A DNA stretch of 40,385 nt from Candidatus Buchananbacteria bacterium (lineage in GTDB: Bacteria > Patescibacteriota > Patescibacteriia > CAIXNZ01), in contig WJKP01000055.1 of NCBI GenBank assembly GCA_014729025.1, positions 1 through 40,385 on the forward strand, in the 5' to 3' direction. Positions 3,965-40,225 of this stretch are shown piece after piece. Below the pieces are notes generated by a model. The model was not told the DNA's origin and did no database searches. It saw nothing but the letters and a program-made list of their open reading frames with translations. A program made the translations under genes and the position numbers. Numbering within the stretch: the first letter of the stretch is position 1; each line of letters opens with the position of its first letter.

Positions 3965-5524
3965 TTATTTCTTCTGCAACACAACCACCTGCACTTGCTG
4001 ATCTTTATCTGCAAATGATTTTGTTATTTGCAAATCAGTGCTGTCAGCCAATTTATCTAGTTCATCTACTTCGTACTTTTGTGAAACAAAAATAGTCACC
4101 TCTTCACCTTTTTTATATTCAATTTCTGACTCACCTCTTTTGACTGTTAAATCTTCCTTAATATGAATGATTTGTTTTATTTGATTATTAGCTTCATCAG
4201 CTACCATTCCCAATTCAACTTTATCCTCAGGAAAACCCAGATTACGCACCGTTGTCATGACAAACTCCCTGCCCTGCTCATTATCATAATTAGCCAATGT
4301 TTCTTGTAAATCCTTTTTCAAAGTTATGCCAACCAATAATGTGTCATCTTTAGTCATAGAATTACTAAGATTTTTTAATAAACTTTTCTGAAACTTATAA
4401 TCACCATTGCCTAAAGTATTACCCAACAAAGTAAATGTTTTGGGTTCGTCAGGTAATTTATCCTCTAATGATTGATTAAAATCCATTATTTCACCCTGAA
4501 TATTGACCTGAGGATTATCAATCTCCGCGGCAGCGGCAAAAACAAAAGCCGGATTAATATCAATCGGCACATAATCAATTTGATCTTGGGATTCCAATTG
4601 TTTTTGTAATAAAGGCTTTACTTTGGCTGCATCACCGGCACCCAAATCATAAATTATTTTATCACCCACTTCTTCGGCTAATTCGTCAATATGGTCTTTA
4701 ATCAAATCCATTTCAGTATTAGCCAGTTTATATTCTTGACTACGCAAAATTTCTAAAAATTTATCAGCACCTTCACCCTGATAAAAAATTGATTCATCAA
4801 ATGCACGGTTTTCTAAACCTTCAATAATTTTTTCTTCAGTTAGCTGGTCAATTTCCTGAGAAATTTCAGTATCTATTTTAAATTCCAAATCTTTAACATT
4901 CTCATCTACGGCTGCTAGAGGATAACATTTTTCCCAAATATATTTTTTGATTTCTTTAAAAATTTCAGGTAAAGCTCGGCGTAAAGCTGCTTGACCCAAA
5001 GAATGAGCCCGAGGAAAATCCACATTCAGCCCACCATTTTTAATATTTTTTTCCAATTGAGCTGTCAATTCTTTGGCACTTTCACTAGTTTTCCAATGCC
5101 TTTCTTTATCAGTTAACCCTATATCTAAAGTAAAATATTTTAATTTACCTAAACTTTCTTCATATAAAATAGCTTCCCAATCATATTCTTGAGGTTTATC
5201 ACCAAAAATTGGTCCGCTCAAATCAATCCGGCCTTTAACGGTTTCTACACTTTTAGGGGTTGAGAATCCGGCTGCACTATATTCTTCCCAAACATCTGTT
5301 CGTTCTCTGGAGCCTTTAGTAATCGATTCTATTTCTATACCATGAATTTCAAAATCCTCAAAAGATTCCCAGCCTTTTTCTTTGATATAAGCCAAAGCTT
5401 TTTTGCGTTTACTGATTTCTGCAAAAGAAGCTCCTTCTTTTGTCAAAGCCCAATACGAAAATTTCTCTTTTTTTTGACTTAAAGGTTTTTCCGGCTGAGA
5501 CATTTGTGGTATTTTTTCCGTCAT
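3965..5524 (-). CDS. EgtD-like SAM methyltransferase with long N-terminal extension
   Basis: 519 residues. Residues ~245-519 follow the histidine N-alpha-methyltransferase (EgtD, Methyltransf_33) pattern: FYQGEGADKFLEIL then EYKLANTE (substrate lobe); IYDLGAGDAAK (291-301, SAM motif I); YVPIDIN (318-324); LLGNTLGNGD (367-376); LLVGITLKKD (396-405); and a C-terminal KGEEVTIFVSQKY strand. EgtD trimethylates histidine in ergothioneine synthesis. No EgtB-like partner is present here, so another substrate is plausible. The first ~240 residues are charged, include GRIDLSGPIFGD, and match nothing I know. Typical EgtD is about 320 residues, so this is an unusual two-part protein. No ribosome site is obvious. 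Confidence 0.75.
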   Translation of the reverse strand: MTEKIPQMSQPEKPLSQKKEKFSYWALTKEGASFAEISKRKKALAYIKEKGWESFEDFEIHGIEIESITKGSRERTDVWEEYSAAGFSTPKSVETVKGRIDLSGPIFGDKPQEYDWEAILYEESLGKLKYFTLDIGLTDKERHWKTSESAKELTAQLEKNIKNGGLNVDFPRAHSLGQAALRRALPEIFKEIKKYIWEKCYPLAAVDENVKDLEFKIDTEISQEIDQLTEEKIIEGLENRAFDESIFYQGEGADKFLEILRSQEYKLANTEMDLIKDHIDELAEEVGDKIIYDLGAGDAAKVKPLLQKQLESQDQIDYVPIDINPAFVFAAAAEIDNPQVNIQGEIMDFNQSLEDKLPDEPKTFTLLGNTLGNGDYKFQKSLLKNLSNSMTKDDTLLVGITLKKDLQETLANYDNEQGREFVMTTVRNLGFPEDKVELGMVADEANNQIKQIIHIKEDLTVKRGESEIEYKKGEEVTIFVSQKYEVDELDKLADSTDLQITKSFADKDQQVQVVVLQKK

Positions 5525-5860
5525 AATTTTAGATTAGCAAATTGGTAATTTAAACAACTGATTTATTAAAAATAATTATTAATGGTCAATTACCAATATA
5601 TTGAGTTTAATATAATTTATTTAAATTATCAACCAATTATTTAATTTTATAAACTAAAATTAGCCTAAAAATAAAGATTTATTTTAAAAACTATTGACAA
5701 ATATTTACTCTTATGCTAAGTTGATATAATCTTTAAATAGAAACAAAGGAGGTGTTCTTTGTAATCAATAAATATTTAATGGGTAAAGAAAACAAGTTAG
5801 CTTGCGTTTTAACGTAAGCTTGGGAAAAATCAACAAAAAAGGAAAGAAAGGAGAGAAAAC
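5525..5860. other. 336-bp intergenic region with leader of the lipoprotein gene
   Basis: The first ~150 bp are nearly all A/T with no feature I can name. Then come an extended -10 promoter (5722-5730) and a near-perfect anti-16S ribosome site AAAGGAGGTG (5745-5754). This is followed not by a gene but by TTG TAA (5759-5764), and later a 12-codon ATG frame (5779-5817). A hairpin AGCTTGCG (5799-5806) / CGTAAGCT (5813-5820) precedes the gene's real ribosome site (AAAGGAG near 5847). Confidence 0.6.
5722..5730 (+). promoter_or_regulatory. Extended -10 promoter of the lipoprotein gene
   Basis: TGATATAAT: extended TG (5722-5723) and TATAAT (5725-5730). A TTGACA at 5694-5699 is 25 nt upstream of the -10, too far for a standard -35, so the extended -10 probably dominates. 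The predicted transcript has a ~120-nt leader. Confidence 0.65.
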
Positions 5861-33141: not shown

Positions 33142-34728
33142 TTAATTAGTAAATAAACCTTTATTTTGATCAATAGCAACAACCGTGTTTTTTTCTAAAA
33201 AAGGATCAAAGTCTTCCAATTCTTCAATTGGCTGACCGATTTGATAATTAACAAAAAAAGCCGCTGAAATATCAATAACCTGAGACTGCCAATTACTGCC
33301 ATATAACCCACTGGCCAGTTCTTCATTTTTAACCCAGCGCAAAACACTGCCTTGACTAACAGCATAAACCTTGGCATCTGACTGGATTTTAATTAAACGA
33401 GTACCGGGCCGAACAGTAACATTGCCGGACAAAGTTATTTGTGATAATTCATTAGCATTTATTTTTATAATCTTATTAAAATCATCATACCAGCTAAAAT
33501 AAGTGGCTGAGTCAGGAAAAACATAACGTTTACCGTTAATGGCCTGATAATAAATCGTTGATGAACCAGGCGTCTGGATTAAACGGGTCTCACCCGAATA
33601 TGACAATAAACTTTGCCAAACTTTAACCGGATTAACCAAGCCGTTACCCAATTTACCGATAAAACCAGGATTAACATCATCAATATTGTCAGTATTGTTT
33701 AAAATCAAATCAGTAATTTGTTGATTATTTAAGCTTGGTTCATAAGATTTTATCACCGCAGCCAATCCTGAAATAAGCGGTGCTGCCAACGAAGTGCCGG
33801 AAAAACCACTGCCATAATAATCTTGTAATTTAGGGACATCTGAATCATGAAACAACGTACCCCAAAAATTATCACCCGGGGCTATTATGTCCACACAGCT
33901 TGAACCGTAATTGGAATAACCGGCCAGTTTATTGTCTTTATCACTGGCACCGACACCAATTATAATATTTTTATTATCAAAACCTTGATGACAAACCGGG
34001 TACATTTTTTCAATATCCAAATCAACAACTTCACCCAAAAAATCCTCATTACCAGCTGCTACCACAATTACAAGACCGGCCTGATAAGCTTCATTTAAAG
34101 CAAATTCCAAGGCCTGATCATAAGAATCACCAACAAAACTTAAATTAATAATATCTGCCTGATTATCAATCGCATAATTAATCGCCTGAATAACATCTAA
34201 AGTATTACCGGAACCGTTTTGGCTCAAAACCCTTAACGGCATTATTTTAGTTTGCCAGCCCATACCGGTCCCGCCAATACCGTTATTGCCAACAGCAGCT
34301 GCGACTCCGGCAATAAAAGTACCATGCACAATCGCTTCTTCAATGCAAGTTTGGCGTTTGAAACAATTAGGATCATATTTGGGCCGAGGATCATTATTTT
34401 CTTCTATAAAATCCCAGCCATTAATATCGTCAATATACCCGTTTTGGTCATTATCAATGCCGTCACCTAAAATTTCATCATTATTAACCCAGACATTGTC
34501 ATGCAAATCAGGATGATCAGGGTCAATGCCTGAATCAATCATGGCAATTACCACATTTTTACTGCCGGTTTCCTCGGCCCAGACTTGAGGCATGTTTAAT
34601 TTATCCAAATACCATTGTTTATCATAACCGGGATCATTTGGCATTAATTCAGCTGCCATAACAAAATTACCTGTTAAAAACAGGCTTAAAATTAAAAAAA
34701 AGACGATTATTTTTTTGTTTAATTTCAT
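33142..34728 (-). CDS. Exported subtilisin-like (S8) protease with C-terminal surface module
   Basis: 528 residues: signal peptide (about residues 1-25), S8 catalytic domain (~40-375) and C-terminal module (~380-508). The triad is complete: Asp65 in IDSGIDPDHPDL, His135 in VHGTFIAG, Ser313 in GTSLAAP, plus oxyanion Asn227 in AAGNED. There is no obvious long propeptide. Asp/Asn-rich NDQNGYIDD could bind calcium. The C-terminal module (with NGKRYVFPD, SGNVTVRPGTRLIKI, VYAVSQGSVLRWV) is shared with the proteins at 35185-36825 and 38411-40189. It may anchor the protease to the cell surface. Strong family call; target unknown. Confidence 0.95.
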   Translation of the reverse strand: MKLNKKIIVFFLILSLFLTGNFVMAAELMPNDPGYDKQWYLDKLNMPQVWAEETGSKNVVIAMIDSGIDPDHPDLHDNVWVNNDEILGDGIDNDQNGYIDDINGWDFIEENNDPRPKYDPNCFKRQTCIEEAIVHGTFIAGVAAAVGNNGIGGTGMGWQTKIMPLRVLSQNGSGNTLDVIQAINYAIDNQADIINLSFVGDSYDQALEFALNEAYQAGLVIVVAAGNEDFLGEVVDLDIEKMYPVCHQGFDNKNIIIGVGASDKDNKLAGYSNYGSSCVDIIAPGDNFWGTLFHDSDVPKLQDYYGSGFSGTSLAAPLISGLAAVIKSYEPSLNNQQITDLILNNTDNIDDVNPGFIGKLGNGLVNPVKVWQSLLSYSGETRLIQTPGSSTIYYQAINGKRYVFPDSATYFSWYDDFNKIIKINANELSQITLSGNVTVRPGTRLIKIQSDAKVYAVSQGSVLRWVKNEELASGLYGSNWQSQVIDISAAFFVNYQIGQPIEELEDFDPFLEKNTVVAIDQNKGLFTN

Positions 34729-34779
34729 TTTTTTAAAAATTTAAAATATCAACCCTGAAAATGCCAAGATCAGCTAATG

Positions 34780-34859
34780 CCCTCGCTTGTCACGGGTAGC
34801 ATGGAGCCCCTGCGCCATGCCTTCGCTTGTCACGGGTAGCATGGAGCCCCTGCTCCATG
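34780..34859 (+). repeat. Two tandem 40-bp GTAG-headed REP units
   Basis: Two contiguous near-identical units with a 40-nt period. Each has GTAG (34796-34799; 34836-34839) directly followed by a hairpin with 7-nt arms and a 6-nt loop: CATGGAG...CGCCATG (34800-34819, one mismatch) and CATGGAG...CTCCATG (34840-34859, perfect). They face the opposite-strand unit at 34873-34896 and together form a BIME-like inverted array. Confidence 0.85.
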
Positions 34860-35185
34860 TCGGGCAATTGCGCCAAGAGCAGAGACTCTTGGCTACCCCT
34901 TTTTTTATAATAATCAATAATATTACGAGCTGAATAAGACTTTATATTTTGAACCACTCTTGAAATTGTCAAATCCGGATACTTTTCCAAATCAAAATAA
35001 ATTAAAAAATGCACATGATCAGGCATCAGACAATAACCGTAAATTTTCAATGCCCATTTTTCTCTATAAAAATCCAAATTGGCTAAAAATAATTGGCAAC
35101 ACTTTTCATCTTTAAAATAAGCCTTATTATTAAATGTCCGAAATGTCACAAAATGAATATCACCCGGCTGATTAAATCTTTGCAT
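34790..35185 (-). pseudogene. REP-associated tyrosine transposase (RAYT), C-terminal half lost
   Basis: 131 codons. Residues 1-96 are the N-terminal half of a Y1/RAYT transposase: FNQPGDIHFVTFRTFNNK, the HUH pair in MPDHVHFLIYF (His57, His59) and the likely nucleophile Tyr84 in IKSYSARN. After residue ~97 the frame runs through the REP hairpins at 34780-34896 and stops, without the WQxGFYD...YIHxNPV half of the family. That half is found in the remnant at 36829-37220. The ATG overlaps the stop of the upstream surface-protein gene by 1 nt. Probably inactive as a full enzyme, although HUH and Tyr are intact, so residual activity is conceivable. Confidence 0.8.
34873..34896 (-). repeat. GTAG-headed REP unit, inverted
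   Basis: Minus strand: GTAG (34896-34893) then stem CCAAGAG/CTCTTGG (34892-34886 and 34879-34873) with a 6-nt loop. Opposite orientation to the tandem pair at 34780-34859. Confidence 0.85.
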
Positions 35186-36825
35186 TATAATAACCCTTTA
35201 TCCTGATTAATGGTCTTGATTTGTTCAATTAATTGCCCGGGGTTATAATCCTCGGAATTTTTAATCTCACCTGCCAACTCATAATCAGTAAAAAAAACAT
35301 CAGGCACATCTTTGATTTTTTGCTGCCAATTATTACCGTAAACTGAATTAGCTATATTTTCCGAAGTAATCCATTTTAATTGCCCGTCTTGGTCAACAGC
35401 ATAAACTTTGGGCTCGGTTGTTATTTTAACCAAATAAACACCCGGTTTATAAGTAACATTACCACCGATCGGAATCAAAGCCAATTGCTGGTCAGTTATT
35501 TTTTTTACCTGGGAAAAATCATCATACCAGCTTAAATAAACGCCTTGGCTGGGAAAAACATAACGTTTACCGTCAGCGCCATAATAATAAACAGCCTGGG
35601 TACTGGCTTTAATTAAATCACCATAATCAATATCAGTATCTGCTAAACCAGGTTCAACTACTTTAATTACTGCTTGCCCCAAAATTGTCTGATCAATTGA
35701 AAATTTAATATTATGCAAACCAGGCTGCACCGAATAAACGTCAAATTCAATTTCACCGTTTTTATCTGATAAATTATTAGGTAAATTAACAAAAAGACCG
35801 GGATCAGCCGTATAATCAACAGACCAATTAGCAATCGGCTGATTGCCAGTATCACGTAATTTAATAATGCCCATTGCCGGATCCAACCCGCTATTAGTAA
35901 TGGTCGTATTATTCATGACAATATCGGAATTATCAGGTGAAAATTCTTGATTTACAACATTAACAGTAATCGGCGCGGTTTGACTAAAATTACCCCAATC
36001 ATCATAAGCCTGCAAACTAAGGGTGTATTCTCCGTCTTTTATATTTTGCCAATCATAAGTCCATTGATACGGCAAAACATTATAATTGGTAATAGCTAAA
36101 AGCTGGTCATTGATTTTTATGGCAAAAGCTTTCAAACCATGATTACCCTGATCACGAGCCAAACCTTTAATTAAAAAATGATCATTATTAATAAAATCAT
36201 TATCAGTTAAATTAATTATAACCAATTTAGGCCCTGTTTCATCATAAGCGACATTGGAAACAACCTGATTACTGTTATTTGTTAAATTTTTATCAGTTGG
36301 CCCGTTATTGCCTGAATCAAGAAAAATCCCAAAATCACCAACATCAAAACTGTTATTATTGTTTACATCAAGCAAAGCCGGTATTTGCATTTGAATAGTA
36401 CCGGTTTCTTCAATCAAACTATAAGTTTCAATAGACACATAAAAATGTAAACTATCGTCAATTGATTCGCTTAAATTATCAATATACCAGGATTTAAAAC
36501 CCGAAGAATAATCAAAATCACCAACAACTCTATCAATACCCATGCCCTGAAACCCTAAAGGCCCGTCATCAACCCATAACGTCATATATTTAATATGATT
36601 AAAATTACCGGCTGAACCACGGTTACGCAAAGAAATCGCCCGCACAACATCAGGTTCAAGGCTAATTAAAGTAAAATCCAAAACTAAATCATCAAAAGTC
36701 CCGGCTAAAAAAGTATCATAAGGCGCATGTAAATTAACAATAGCATTAGACTCAAAAGCCAAGGTATTATTGGGTAATAAAACCAAAACTAAACTTATAA
36801 CAATAAAATAAATTAATTTTTTCAT
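35185..36825 (-). CDS. Exported multi-domain surface protein with KRYVFP module
   Basis: 546 residues. Signal peptide (about residues 1-23); a beta-rich N-terminal domain; a calcium-loop-like stretch DVNNNNSFDVGDFG; an Ig-like domain (~205-305, with DWQNIKDGEYTLSLQAYDDWGN); a second Ig-like region (~310-395); and the shared module at ~402-527 (GDLIKASTQAVYYYG, GKRYVFPS, PIGGNVTYKPGVYLVKI, KVYAVDQDGQLKWI). The chain ends with the same INQDKGLL-like tail seen in the subtilase. A structural or adhesive cell-surface role is likely. It sits between the two halves of a broken RAYT and upstream of the subtilase. Confidence 0.82.
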   Translation of the reverse strand: MKKLIYFIVISLVLVLLPNNTLAFESNAIVNLHAPYDTFLAGTFDDLVLDFTLISLEPDVVRAISLRNRGSAGNFNHIKYMTLWVDDGPLGFQGMGIDRVVGDFDYSSGFKSWYIDNLSESIDDSLHFYVSIETYSLIEETGTIQMQIPALLDVNNNNSFDVGDFGIFLDSGNNGPTDKNLTNNSNQVVSNVAYDETGPKLVIINLTDNDFINNDHFLIKGLARDQGNHGLKAFAIKINDQLLAITNYNVLPYQWTYDWQNIKDGEYTLSLQAYDDWGNFSQTAPITVNVVNQEFSPDNSDIVMNNTTITNSGLDPAMGIIKLRDTGNQPIANWSVDYTADPGLFVNLPNNLSDKNGEIEFDVYSVQPGLHNIKFSIDQTILGQAVIKVVEPGLADTDIDYGDLIKASTQAVYYYGADGKRYVFPSQGVYLSWYDDFSQVKKITDQQLALIPIGGNVTYKPGVYLVKITTEPKVYAVDQDGQLKWITSENIANSVYGNNWQQKIKDVPDVFFTDYELAGEIKNSEDYNPGQLIEQIKTINQDKGLL

Positions 36826-36828
36826 AAT

Positions 36829-37220
36829 TTAATTAATATCAATTTTAAAAACACGATGATCAGCTAATTTCCGCCACAGGCAGACAGGCAGCCTCTGGCT
36901 GACATAATTGCGCCAAGAACAATATTTATACTGCGAAATATCAGTGGTTAAGCCGTGTTTAACGGGATTATCATGAATATATTTTAATTTTTCCTCAAAT
37001 TTTTTATCAGAATAAACATTAAAATCATAAAACCCAGCCTGCCAAATTTTCAGACAATCACGTGTTGACAGATAATTAAAGCCTTTCTCCCTACGGGTAA
37101 ACAAGGCTTTTATGCCTTGTCTAAAAAATTTTTCCTGCCGAAGCATAAAAGCTTCGGTTGCCATGTTTAGTTATCAGATATTTTGAAATCAATGAATATC
37201 ACCTGATTAAATTTAGGCAT
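36829..37220 (-). pseudogene. RAYT transposase remnant: start stub plus C-terminal half
   Basis: ATG 37220 begins MPKFNQ, followed by nucleotides matching the start of the RAYT at 35185 (TTTAATCAG...GTGATATTCATT) but lacking 4 nt, then a stop. After the REP hairpins (37097-37161) the frame continues to 36829 as the C-terminal half of a RAYT: FNYLSTRDCLKIWQAGFYDF, YSDKKFEEKLKYIHDNPVKHGL and YKYCSWRNY. The segment with HUH and catalytic Tyr is missing. A 111-codon frame from ATG 37164 could be translated but would lack catalytic residues. The gene lies 2 nt after the TPR-protein stop. Confidence 0.82.
37097..37161. repeat. Inverted pair of REP-type hairpins inside the RAYT remnant
   Basis: Plus strand: GTAA (37097-37100), then ACAAGGC/GCCTTGT (37101-37107 and 37114-37120), 6-nt loop. 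Minus strand: GCAA (37161-37158), then CCGAAGC/GCTTCGG (37157-37151 and 37144-37138), 6-nt loop. The geometry matches the GTAG-headed units; heads point outwards. Confidence 0.75.
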
Positions 37221-38265: not shown

Positions 38266-38315
38266 TTATTCTTCGCATGATTGCAGATTGCTGCGAATGA
38301 ATTCGCAGCTACCCT
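38266..38315 (-). repeat. GTAG-headed REP unit with upstream extension
   Basis: Minus strand: GTAG (38312-38309), then perfect stem CTGCGAA/TTCGCAG (38308-38302 and 38297-38291), here with a 4-nt loop. On the plus strand it is preceded by CTTCGCATGATTGCAG, which recurs at the very end of the window, so the unit is repeated. Confidence 0.8.
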
Positions 38316-38410: not shown

Positions 38411-40189
38411 TTAGAATGATGTGCCAAGACCATTAACCGGTAAGTTTTCTAATAAATAACCGTTAGAAGCAAGACCTGAACCATCAAGCCATTCAAGACA
38501 ATTATTATTCTTGATCGTATCAACATCAGAATCATCACAACCACCAGCACCAGCAGTATCATTTGAGATTAAATCAACAGTAATTGCATCATCTAAAACA
38601 GATGATGCACCTGTTGTATTTAATACAACTCTATAAGATTTACTTGTCGTTGGATTAATATTCATTGGACTGGAACCGGCAAGGCCTGGGTTATCCAATT
38701 CAACTACGACTTCAATAATATCTGGGCCAGCACCAAGACAAGACGTAGCTGAAGGTGTAGCTGTAATAGTAGCATTAGCAGCTAAATCAGTTGATAAATC
38801 ACCAGTATCATACAGTTCAAGAGTTGATGGGATAGAACAAGCCCAATCAGTACCAGCAAAATCAGAAGCACTTAATTTAAAAGTTAAATGATTAATAGTT
38901 GAAACATTCCCATTACTATTAGATAAATCAAAAATCAAATAATAATCCAGGCTCGGCACAGCATCAATTCTCTGTGGTGAGGCGATATTAAGTGAAAAAT
39001 CTAAAATAGTTTTTCTGGCATATAATGGGTTGCCAGTACTATCAGAGTCACCGGCATTATTCGCAGTCGCAAAACTACCAGTAGCCAGGCATTGGGCTTT
39101 TGTTAAAGCGTTAATAGCTGGATTCAAATCAGCGTCTTGAGACTCTAATGTTAAAGTAAATGGATTATTACCAGCCAAAGCACCAGCGGCATCAGTCTGA
39201 ACATTAACCATAGCTGACATATAACTGTCCACGCCTGCAGGCACATACCAATTCATTAAAGTAAATGAAGCAATACCACCAACCACGGCACTTGATTTTG
39301 TTTCATAAGTGGTTTGGCCGGCATCAGTTGGGTAAGAAATTGAAATACTGGCAACATTAACAGCGCCGCTACCGCCAACTGAAATAGTCGCCTCTGTTAT
39401 TTTAAAAGCCTGATTAGTTGCTTGCCCCAAAACTCTTAAAGCTTTTTGGTCAGTCGCACCCATTTGCACTAATCTGGTCGCGTATTCAGAATCAGCAATA
39501 TCAGCTGACAAACCTATAAAACCAGGTTCTGGAGCGCCACCAAAGCTAACCGGTGGCTGCGCAATTGGTTGCGTTGTTGATTCTTCAGTTGAATCTATTG
39601 GTTCTGCTATTTCTTCTGTTTCTTGAGGCGCTTGAGGTTCCTGTTGTTCTTCTGTTTCTTGTGTTTCCGAAACTAAAGACTTATCCATATCAATTGTCTG
39701 AACCGAATCCATAGCTTCTTCTTTATCATAATCAGCACAATCAGTAATGGGCTGGCCAATCGTATAATTAATAAAAAAAGCATCAGAAATATCTGCTACT
39801 AAATCTTCCCAATCAGCACCATATAAACATTCAGCAATAGCTTCAGTGGTGACCCAACGCAAGGTACCATCTTGAGAAACAGCATAAACTTTTGGGTCAG
39901 TATTAATTTTCACCATCTTGGTTCCCGGCCTAAAAGTAACATTACCGCCAATCGGAATAGCAGCCAATTCTTCGTCAGTAATTTCTTTAACTTCAGAGAA
40001 GTTAGCATACCATGTTTCGTATGTTTTTAGATCTGGAAAAACATAACGTTTAGCATCAACGCCATAGTAATAAACTGCTGAAGATGACGCTTTTATAAGA
40101 TCACCTGGCGCTAAATCAGCGGCGTAAACAGCCGGTAAAAATACTAAGCAAAACATGCCAAGCAAAGTCAAAAAAAGAATTTTTTTCAT
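38411..40189 (-). CDS. Large exported surface protein with N-terminal KRYVFP module
   Basis: 592 residues from ATG 40189, chosen because GGGAGAAAA precedes it; an in-frame ATG at 40210 lies upstream of that site. Signal peptide (residues 1-23, cut near AVYAA). Shared module at ~29-154 (GDLIKASSSAVYYYG, AKRYVFPD, PIGGNVTFRPGTKMVKI, KVYAVSQDGTLRWV). Then a Glu/Gln/Pro/Thr linker (~170-215) and a ~375-residue Ser/Thr/Ala/Asn-rich beta domain with a few cysteines. No membrane anchor or sorting signal at the end (NGLGTSF). With its own promoter, leader hairpin and strong terminator it may be an abundant surface or S-layer-like protein. Confidence 0.83.
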   Translation of the reverse strand: MKKILFLTLLGMFCLVFLPAVYAADLAPGDLIKASSSAVYYYGVDAKRYVFPDLKTYETWYANFSEVKEITDEELAAIPIGGNVTFRPGTKMVKINTDPKVYAVSQDGTLRWVTTEAIAECLYGADWEDLVADISDAFFINYTIGQPITDCADYDKEEAMDSVQTIDMDKSLVSETQETEEQQEPQAPQETEEIAEPIDSTEESTTQPIAQPPVSFGGAPEPGFIGLSADIADSEYATRLVQMGATDQKALRVLGQATNQAFKITEATISVGGSGAVNVASISISYPTDAGQTTYETKSSAVVGGIASFTLMNWYVPAGVDSYMSAMVNVQTDAAGALAGNNPFTLTLESQDADLNPAINALTKAQCLATGSFATANNAGDSDSTGNPLYARKTILDFSLNIASPQRIDAVPSLDYYLIFDLSNSNGNVSTINHLTFKLSASDFAGTDWACSIPSTLELYDTGDLSTDLAANATITATPSATSCLGAGPDIIEVVVELDNPGLAGSSPMNINPTTSKSYRVVLNTTGASSVLDDAITVDLISNDTAGAGGCDDSDVDTIKNNNCLEWLDGSGLASNGYLLENLPVNGLGTSF

Positions 40190-40202
40190 AAATTTTCTCC
40201 CT

Positions 40203-40225
40203 GCTCTCAAAGAATTAATGAGAGC
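40203..40225 (-). promoter_or_regulatory. Leader hairpin before the large exported-protein gene
   Basis: Perfect 7-bp stem GCTCTCA (40203-40209) / TGAGAGC (40219-40225) with a 9-nt loop, immediately upstream of the ribosome site. It may stabilise the mRNA 5' end. Confidence 0.55.

Follow-up and report, generated by a model that had tools for sequence, protein, structure and literature searches.

In-Frame REP Pairs inside RAYT Transposase Genes of Patescibacteria and Two Gene Remnants That May Derive from Such Genes

Genes for REP-associated tyrosine transposases (RAYTs, TnpA-REP) of a clade found in several phyla carry an inverted pair of REPs (a REPIN) in frame within their own coding sequence; the REPIN is nearly fixed in this clade, is phase-locked, has been kept paired despite divergence, and is present in a second loop of the protein in at least three lineages. 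Two damaged RAYT genes are located in the window, positions 1 to 40,385 of contig WJKP01000055.1 (assembly GCA_014729025.1) of Candidatus Buchananbacteria bacterium. Judging from their sequences, these genes would be the remains of a RAYT gene with its own in-frame REPIN as a cis target and source, in which nicking at the REP feet led to deletions; the probability of this reading is estimated at about 0.55.

RAYT Remnants in the Window

The features of the window are as follows.

34740..35185, reverse strand: RAYT remnant 1, N-half with HUH motif (PDHVH), helix alphaC, internal REPIN and short C-terminal tail
34834..34898, reverse strand: internal REPIN of remnant 1, 65 nt, GGGTAG...CTACCC, in-frame translation GSQESLLLAQLPDMEQGLHATR
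34872..34893, reverse strand: left REP hairpin of remnant 1, 8-bp stem, 6-nt loop, GTAG foot
34840..34859, reverse strand: right REP hairpin of remnant 1, 8-bp stem, 4-nt loop, CTAC foot
34777..34856, reverse strand: tandem 40-bp units of remnant 1, each a right REP with tail, 95% identical
35185..36825, reverse strand: intact gene of a secreted protein with Ig-like domains, between the two remnants; unrelated context, outside the element
36829..37220, reverse strand: RAYT remnant 2, start stub, internal REPIN and complete C-half with WQ and YIHDNP
37095..37162, reverse strand: internal REPIN of remnant 2, feet GGCAA and TTTACCC
37138..37157, reverse strand: left hairpin of remnant 2, 7+6+7
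37101..37120, reverse strand: right hairpin of remnant 2, 7+6+7
36870..36902, reverse strand: in-frame insertion in the tail of remnant 2, 33 nt, about SQRLPVCLWRK, absent from relatives in the alignment
38290..38309, reverse strand: solitary GTAG-footed hairpin, intergenic

The open reading frame of remnant 1 (34790-35185) matches the Pfam family Y1_Tnp (PF01797, E 5e-11) and is 64% identical to residues 1-118 of an intact paralogue, after which come the REPs and a homologous C-terminal tail, LADLGIFRVDIL. Its translation runs from MQRFNQPGD...PDHVHFL...IKSYSARNIIDYYKKRGSQESLLLAQLPDMEQGLHATR through the repeats to the C-terminal tail of the RAYT family, and strand beta4 and the catalytic YIHxNP segment are deleted. 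The layout of the REPIN is GGGTAG-CCAAGAG..CTCTTGG-(12 nt)-CATGGAGC..GCTCCATG-CTACCC. The 40-bp tandem duplication (34777-34816 and 34817-34856) supplies an extra copy of the right REP with one mismatch, and the second unit abuts the C-terminal tail of the gene. Remnant 2 lacks the HUH part; a start stub of 17 codons (MPKFNQ..) is followed by the inverted hairpin pair, KIWQAGFYDFN...YIHDNP... and the tail, and its C-half shares 59-70% identity with intact copies across about 70 aa. The 33-nt insertion in its tail looks like another palindromic repeat. A 16-nt stretch of remnant 1, GCTCTTGGCGCAATTG, was considered as a match to the CSWRN codons of remnant 2 and dropped, being out of frame.

The Pfam match, the alignment with the paralogue and the hairpin calls bear out the first-pass annotation in that both genes are RAYT remnants with inverted hairpins at the same internal point. 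Its choice of Tyr84 as the catalytic residue was mistaken: this tyrosine lies in helix alphaC, and the catalytic one of the RAYT family is the Y of YIHxNP (Table 1 of PMC6006769), in the C-half. Remnant 1 has the HUH motif without the catalytic tyrosine and remnant 2 the tyrosine without HUH, and because the two are separated in this way, neither remnant is likely to encode a working enzyme. The splitting of one gene by insertion of the 1.6-kb gene is ruled out, as both remnants have retained 5' and 3' ends of their own and the C-half comes first on the strand.

Paralogous secreted-protein genes sharing a (G)KRYVFPD..Y.SWYDDF domain (33142-34728, 35185-36825 and 38411-40210 in the window, and 2783-3208 in L004) adjoin RAYT genes or remnants; RAYTs may target this family or hitch-hike with it.

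Hairpins span 20-22 nt, with geometries of 9+4+9, 8+6+8 or 7+6+7 over both remnants; the 7-bp stem and 6-nt loop initially proposed for all units describe the hairpins of remnant 2. When folded as single-stranded DNA, each of the two REPINs is more stable than all of 200 shuffled sequences (z -4.3 and -4.1). Hairpin counts, which cover 772 kb of the genome, gave 18 hairpins with a GTAG/CTAC foot, those of the RAYT genes included, versus 2-4 in Markov-2 nulls, and 590 hairpins of this general size versus about 255 expected, many of the 590 probably being terminators.

Intact RAYTs and Census of Internal Hairpins

The source genome, the only one in its genus, contains one intact copy of the gene (G000:C2:34125-34730, 202 aa), which carries the same REPIN, in frame and in the same loop (alphaC:beta4), its linker reading TTG GGT AGC CAT GAG CAT CTG CTC TTG GCA ... 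ATG GAG CAG ATG CTC CAT TCT ACT CGT. Such RAYT genes are present in six of the nine genomes of the family, with in-frame hairpins in all of them, and a GTDB-wide scan revealed further members, likewise with in-frame hairpins, in other Patescibacteria, Dehalococcoidia and Stahlbacteria. Intact relatives combine HUH and the catalytic tyrosine (Y...NP), which are divided between the two remnants in the window. The proposal that the REP pair lay in frame in the transposase linker is thereby upheld, since the paralogue and the relatives carry the GTAG-footed inverted pair, and the refuting case named beforehand, hairpin-free linkers in intact relatives, did not hold. The idea that this was special to the present lineage is not upheld: the feature is nearly fixed in a clade of RAYTs that spans several phyla, and a comparable one was published for subclass 2.4 in 2018. 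The NCBIfam model NF047646 scores above its cut-off for six RAYTs with internal REPs and one outgroup RAYT. In the linker-free outgroup RAYTs of Schekmanbacteria (L103) and Nitrospira (L104), hairpins coincide with the start and stop codons or lie immediately beyond them.

A search bias toward linker-bearing members was checked with a linker-free model of the C-half, run over 381 genomes of the class and pooled with the earlier loci. Among the 32 distinct RAYTs with E below 1e-20, found mainly with this model, 31 carry, between HxH and W, a hairpin whose stem has 7 bp or more, which corresponds to 6.5 per kb, and no such hairpin was found in the N- or C-part of the same 32 genes. L238 is the sole close RAYT without an internal hairpin. 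More distant RAYT groups (E 1e-15 to 1e-8) mostly lack it (2 of 11 have one). A null model with the protein fixed and synonymous codons resampled was rejected in most genes (p 0.005-0.03, usually 0.005); the exceptions, L092, L160 and L164 (p 0.07-0.08), have one exact hairpin each, which in L160 is the first one only.

Several variants of the arrangement were observed. Two near-identical RAYT genes 3 kb apart (G007:C41:2251-2841 and 5204-5794; L034 and L038) each have an upstream REPIN besides the internal one, and represent a recent duplication of the whole unit of RAYT and REPINs. In the RAYTs L160, L162 and L239, the order within the internal pair is opposite to the usual one, the feet facing each other (hairpin-CTAC ... 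GTAG-hairpin), and the loops are 5 nt long. In L255 and L256, of a distant RAYT group, both linker and flanks contain hairpins of the GGCGAGG(A/T)T type, and one of the flanking hairpins has a stem of 24 bp.

Position of the REPs in the Protein Fold

AlphaFold2 modelling of L086 with 15 relatives predicted a confident RAYT fold (mean pLDDT 81.6), for which the top Foldseek match was the E. coli TnpA-REP (PDB code 4ER8, E 1.5e-8). The only long low-confidence stretch, residues 103-134 with pLDDT below 50, is the part encoded by the REPIN, situated between a helix (74-100) and a strand (145-149); this loop is predicted to be disordered, and by the published secondary structure names the insertion site is alphaC:beta4.

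A second loop, beta3:alphaC, holds the hairpins in L037, L040, L218 and L211. Trees built without the insertion columns placed L037 and L040 within the clade of the window family (support 96/94, and 99/99 in the second tree). A single origin of the second-loop insertions was rejected by the AU test (p 0.005), a value that is indicative, as the group was named after a first tree. The second-loop genes do not form one group, and therefore internal REPs have been gained or moved more than once.

Conservation of Internal REPs at the DNA Level

A gap-free alignment of the left REPs of 18 members showed changes on both sides of the stem in 7 of 8 pairs, with 99.3% of the cells paired. Double-sided changes numbered 39, versus 9.9 +/- 2.6 for shuffled data and 2-7 for slid controls; these counts are inflated by the kinship of the sequences, yet the stems differ strongly among lineages, as seen in the lineage-specific GCCAAGAGC, GGCGAAAGC, GGTCGGAGC, GACGAGGTC and GACGGGGC. 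The foot of the left REP was read as GGT AGN (GTAG in phase 1) in every scored case, a phase that masks the TAG stop of the foot; in L218, with its second-loop hairpin, the foot is in another phase, CGG GTA GGT. The right foot of L099, L101, L156 and L158 is read as CTA CCC rather than NCT ACC, so that the DNA motif is kept and the peptide altered. At the level of sequence comparison, covariation and frame-lock are evidence for maintenance of the internal REPs as DNA.

Dispersed REPs

A search with the REP-type pattern covered the whole source genome and found four sites, three of them in RAYT genes. The fourth is an intergenic REPIN of the same format (G000:C26, L054 3978-4041). REPs are rare in the source genome as a whole, a correction to the first-pass annotation. 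Next to the intergenic REPIN lies another one (L054 3911-3969, GGGTAGCCCCGAATTCATTCGGG..) with a hairpin that corresponds to the second-loop type seen in G008, even though the source genome yielded no RAYT of that type.

Sites in or next to RAYT genes make up 4 of 4 in G004, 7 of 7 in G007 and 1 of 1 in G005. The pattern occurs 54 times in G383, the genome of L092, and 15 times in G382, that of L090; a reversed-pattern control gave no sites, except one in G383. The REPIN format, two inverted REPs, has few dispersed copies in the window family and many in G383. The right REP of the L092 gene recurs unchanged among the dispersed copies of its genome, which shows that certain internal REPs are members of dispersed families. 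In the small genomes considered here, the RAYT gene is the main refuge of the REP, and as REPs are nearly confined to RAYT genes in the source genome and its family, no active spread from the internal copy is seen there.

Deletion Ends and Fusions at REPs

The deletion in remnant 1 starts where the second 40-bp REP unit stops, 15 nt past CTACCC, and ends in the tail; that in remnant 2 ends about 8 nt before the GGCAA foot. An in-frame RAYT of L087 (2062-2562) lacks the HUH segment and has a double-foot hairpin, GTAGAGACAGGG..CCCTGTCTCTAC, exactly at the deletion site. In L116 (183-497, Dehalococcoidia), the first 19-22 residues of a carB-like ORF are fused to a RAYT C-half at a double-foot REP, a join that could be a natural fusion or a MAG misassembly. 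In L172 (1495-2826; G042:C2:659003), a RAYT N-half breaks off where its own REP occurs a second time, and the reading frame runs on into a gene resembling NAD(P)H-hydrate dehydratase; this structure exists as two identical inverted copies 22 kb apart, the twin being at 681061.

The E. coli RAYT nicks near REP feet (cited in PMC3733652 and PMC8266576). Similar nicking would account for the deletion ends, and ordinary REP-REP recombination would do so as well. The earlier proposal that cleavage or recombination at REPs split the genes is thus suggested by deletion ends close to REP feet; for RAYT cleavage in particular, we infer it from two remnants, too few for proof.

Discussion

Internal in-frame REPs in RAYTs are a known kind of arrangement, as Quentin et al. 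(2018, PMC6006769) reported TnpA-REP genes of subclass 2.4, mainly from Cyanobacteria and Bacteroidetes, whose in-frame REPs generally fall between HuH and Y, the insertion domain being located at beta3:alphaC. The genes described here resemble them in this placement between HuH and Y and in having both canonical and double-foot REPs (the latter in L097, L116 and L237). Unlike subclass 2.4, most have the insertion at alphaC:beta4, the four second-loop genes being the exceptions; subclass 2.4 is characterised by NH[IFV]H, WQ, YIxNNP and no C-terminal extension, whereas most members of the present clade have WQ, DHxH and YIHxNP, an SS-type tail is present, and the hosts are Patescibacteria, Dehalococcoidia and Stahlbacteria. 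These differences in insertion site, motifs and tail make it doubtful that the clade belongs to subclass 2.4. The E. coli TnpA-REP (REPtron, 4ER8) shares the HUH-Tyr fold and the GTAG-footed hairpins in inverted pairs, but its REPs flank the gene, and its alphaC runs into beta4 with no REP-bearing loop. REPINs (Bertels and Rainey 2011, PMC3116915) are likewise inverted REP pairs, about 60-70 nt here, but the dispersed population is almost absent and the principal copy sits inside the RAYT gene. The intragenic REPs and Rickettsia palindromic elements of Di Nocera et al. (2013, PMC3733652) are also palindromic repeats read in frame; they reside in unrelated host genes, and not, as here, in the cognate transposase gene with near-fixation in a clade. 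A literature search found no work on RAYTs in Patescibacteria. New are the alphaC:beta4 loop, the taxonomic reach, the near-fixation in a clade, the evidence from covariation and frame-lock, the repeated gain of REPs in the second loop and the persistence where dispersed REPs are almost absent.

According to the preferred reading, the RAYT protein would recognise the internal hairpins when its own gene becomes single-stranded during replication or transcription, and might nick at their feet. Each copy of the gene would then carry, in cis, a target coupled to its own reader enzyme, so that enzyme and REP would stay matched, and the internal copy would be a standing source of REPINs; occasional nicking or repair at the feet would remove one side of the gene and leave remnants like these two. 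Inheritance of one old insertion accounts for part of the conservation.

Passive tolerance is a possible explanation, if a less probable one: REPINs would land anywhere and, within coding sequence, survive only if they fall into a disordered surface loop without breaking the frame. The RAYT gene would then be merely a near target, and the internal copy would have no self-target function. Such is the reading that Quentin et al. (PMC6006769) gave for subclass 2.4, REPs being tolerated in a surface loop, and it agrees with the intragenic REPs published for many unrelated genes, with the predicted disorder of the loop and with the use of two different loops. It fits less well with near-fixation in 31 of 32 RAYTs, with perfect pairing retained through much sequence change, with persistence in genomes that have hardly any REP outside RAYT genes, and with the second-loop REPs of RAYTs without the first insertion. 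A reading stronger than ours, and a doubtful one on the present comparisons, would make the internal REPIN an obligate, selected self-target, re-acquired in another loop if lost and acting as a master copy and a device coupling enzyme and target.

Regulation at the RNA level, by mRNA hairpins that slow translation or by binding of the RAYT to its own transcript so as to limit expression, seems improbable. The coding-strand REPINs are very stable (z -4 to -7 with DNA parameters) and published work discusses hairpins as a control of RAYT/IS200 expression. Against this, the known substrate of RAYTs is single-stranded DNA, and the conserved GTAG foot is a feature of DNA cleavage; with its inverse retained at the opposite end, each of the two DNA strands presents a proper REP. 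Selection on the linker peptide itself, with hairpins as a by-product of a repeated peptide, would suit the recurrence of GSQEPLLLA..MEQGLHATR-like peptides in close relatives, but is to all intents ruled out by the synonymous-codon null, the frame switch of the right REP and the stem covariation, the peptides being wholly different among lineages with the pairing kept and the region being predicted as disordered.

The clade bears on how RAYTs stay matched to their REPs and on the persistence of REP/REPIN systems in the absence of classical transposition. With enzyme and target encoded by the same bases, it offers dozens of natural enzyme-target pairs, each in one gene. It is a direct data set for the rules of recognition and a case in which the linkage of a transposase to its substrate can be tested.
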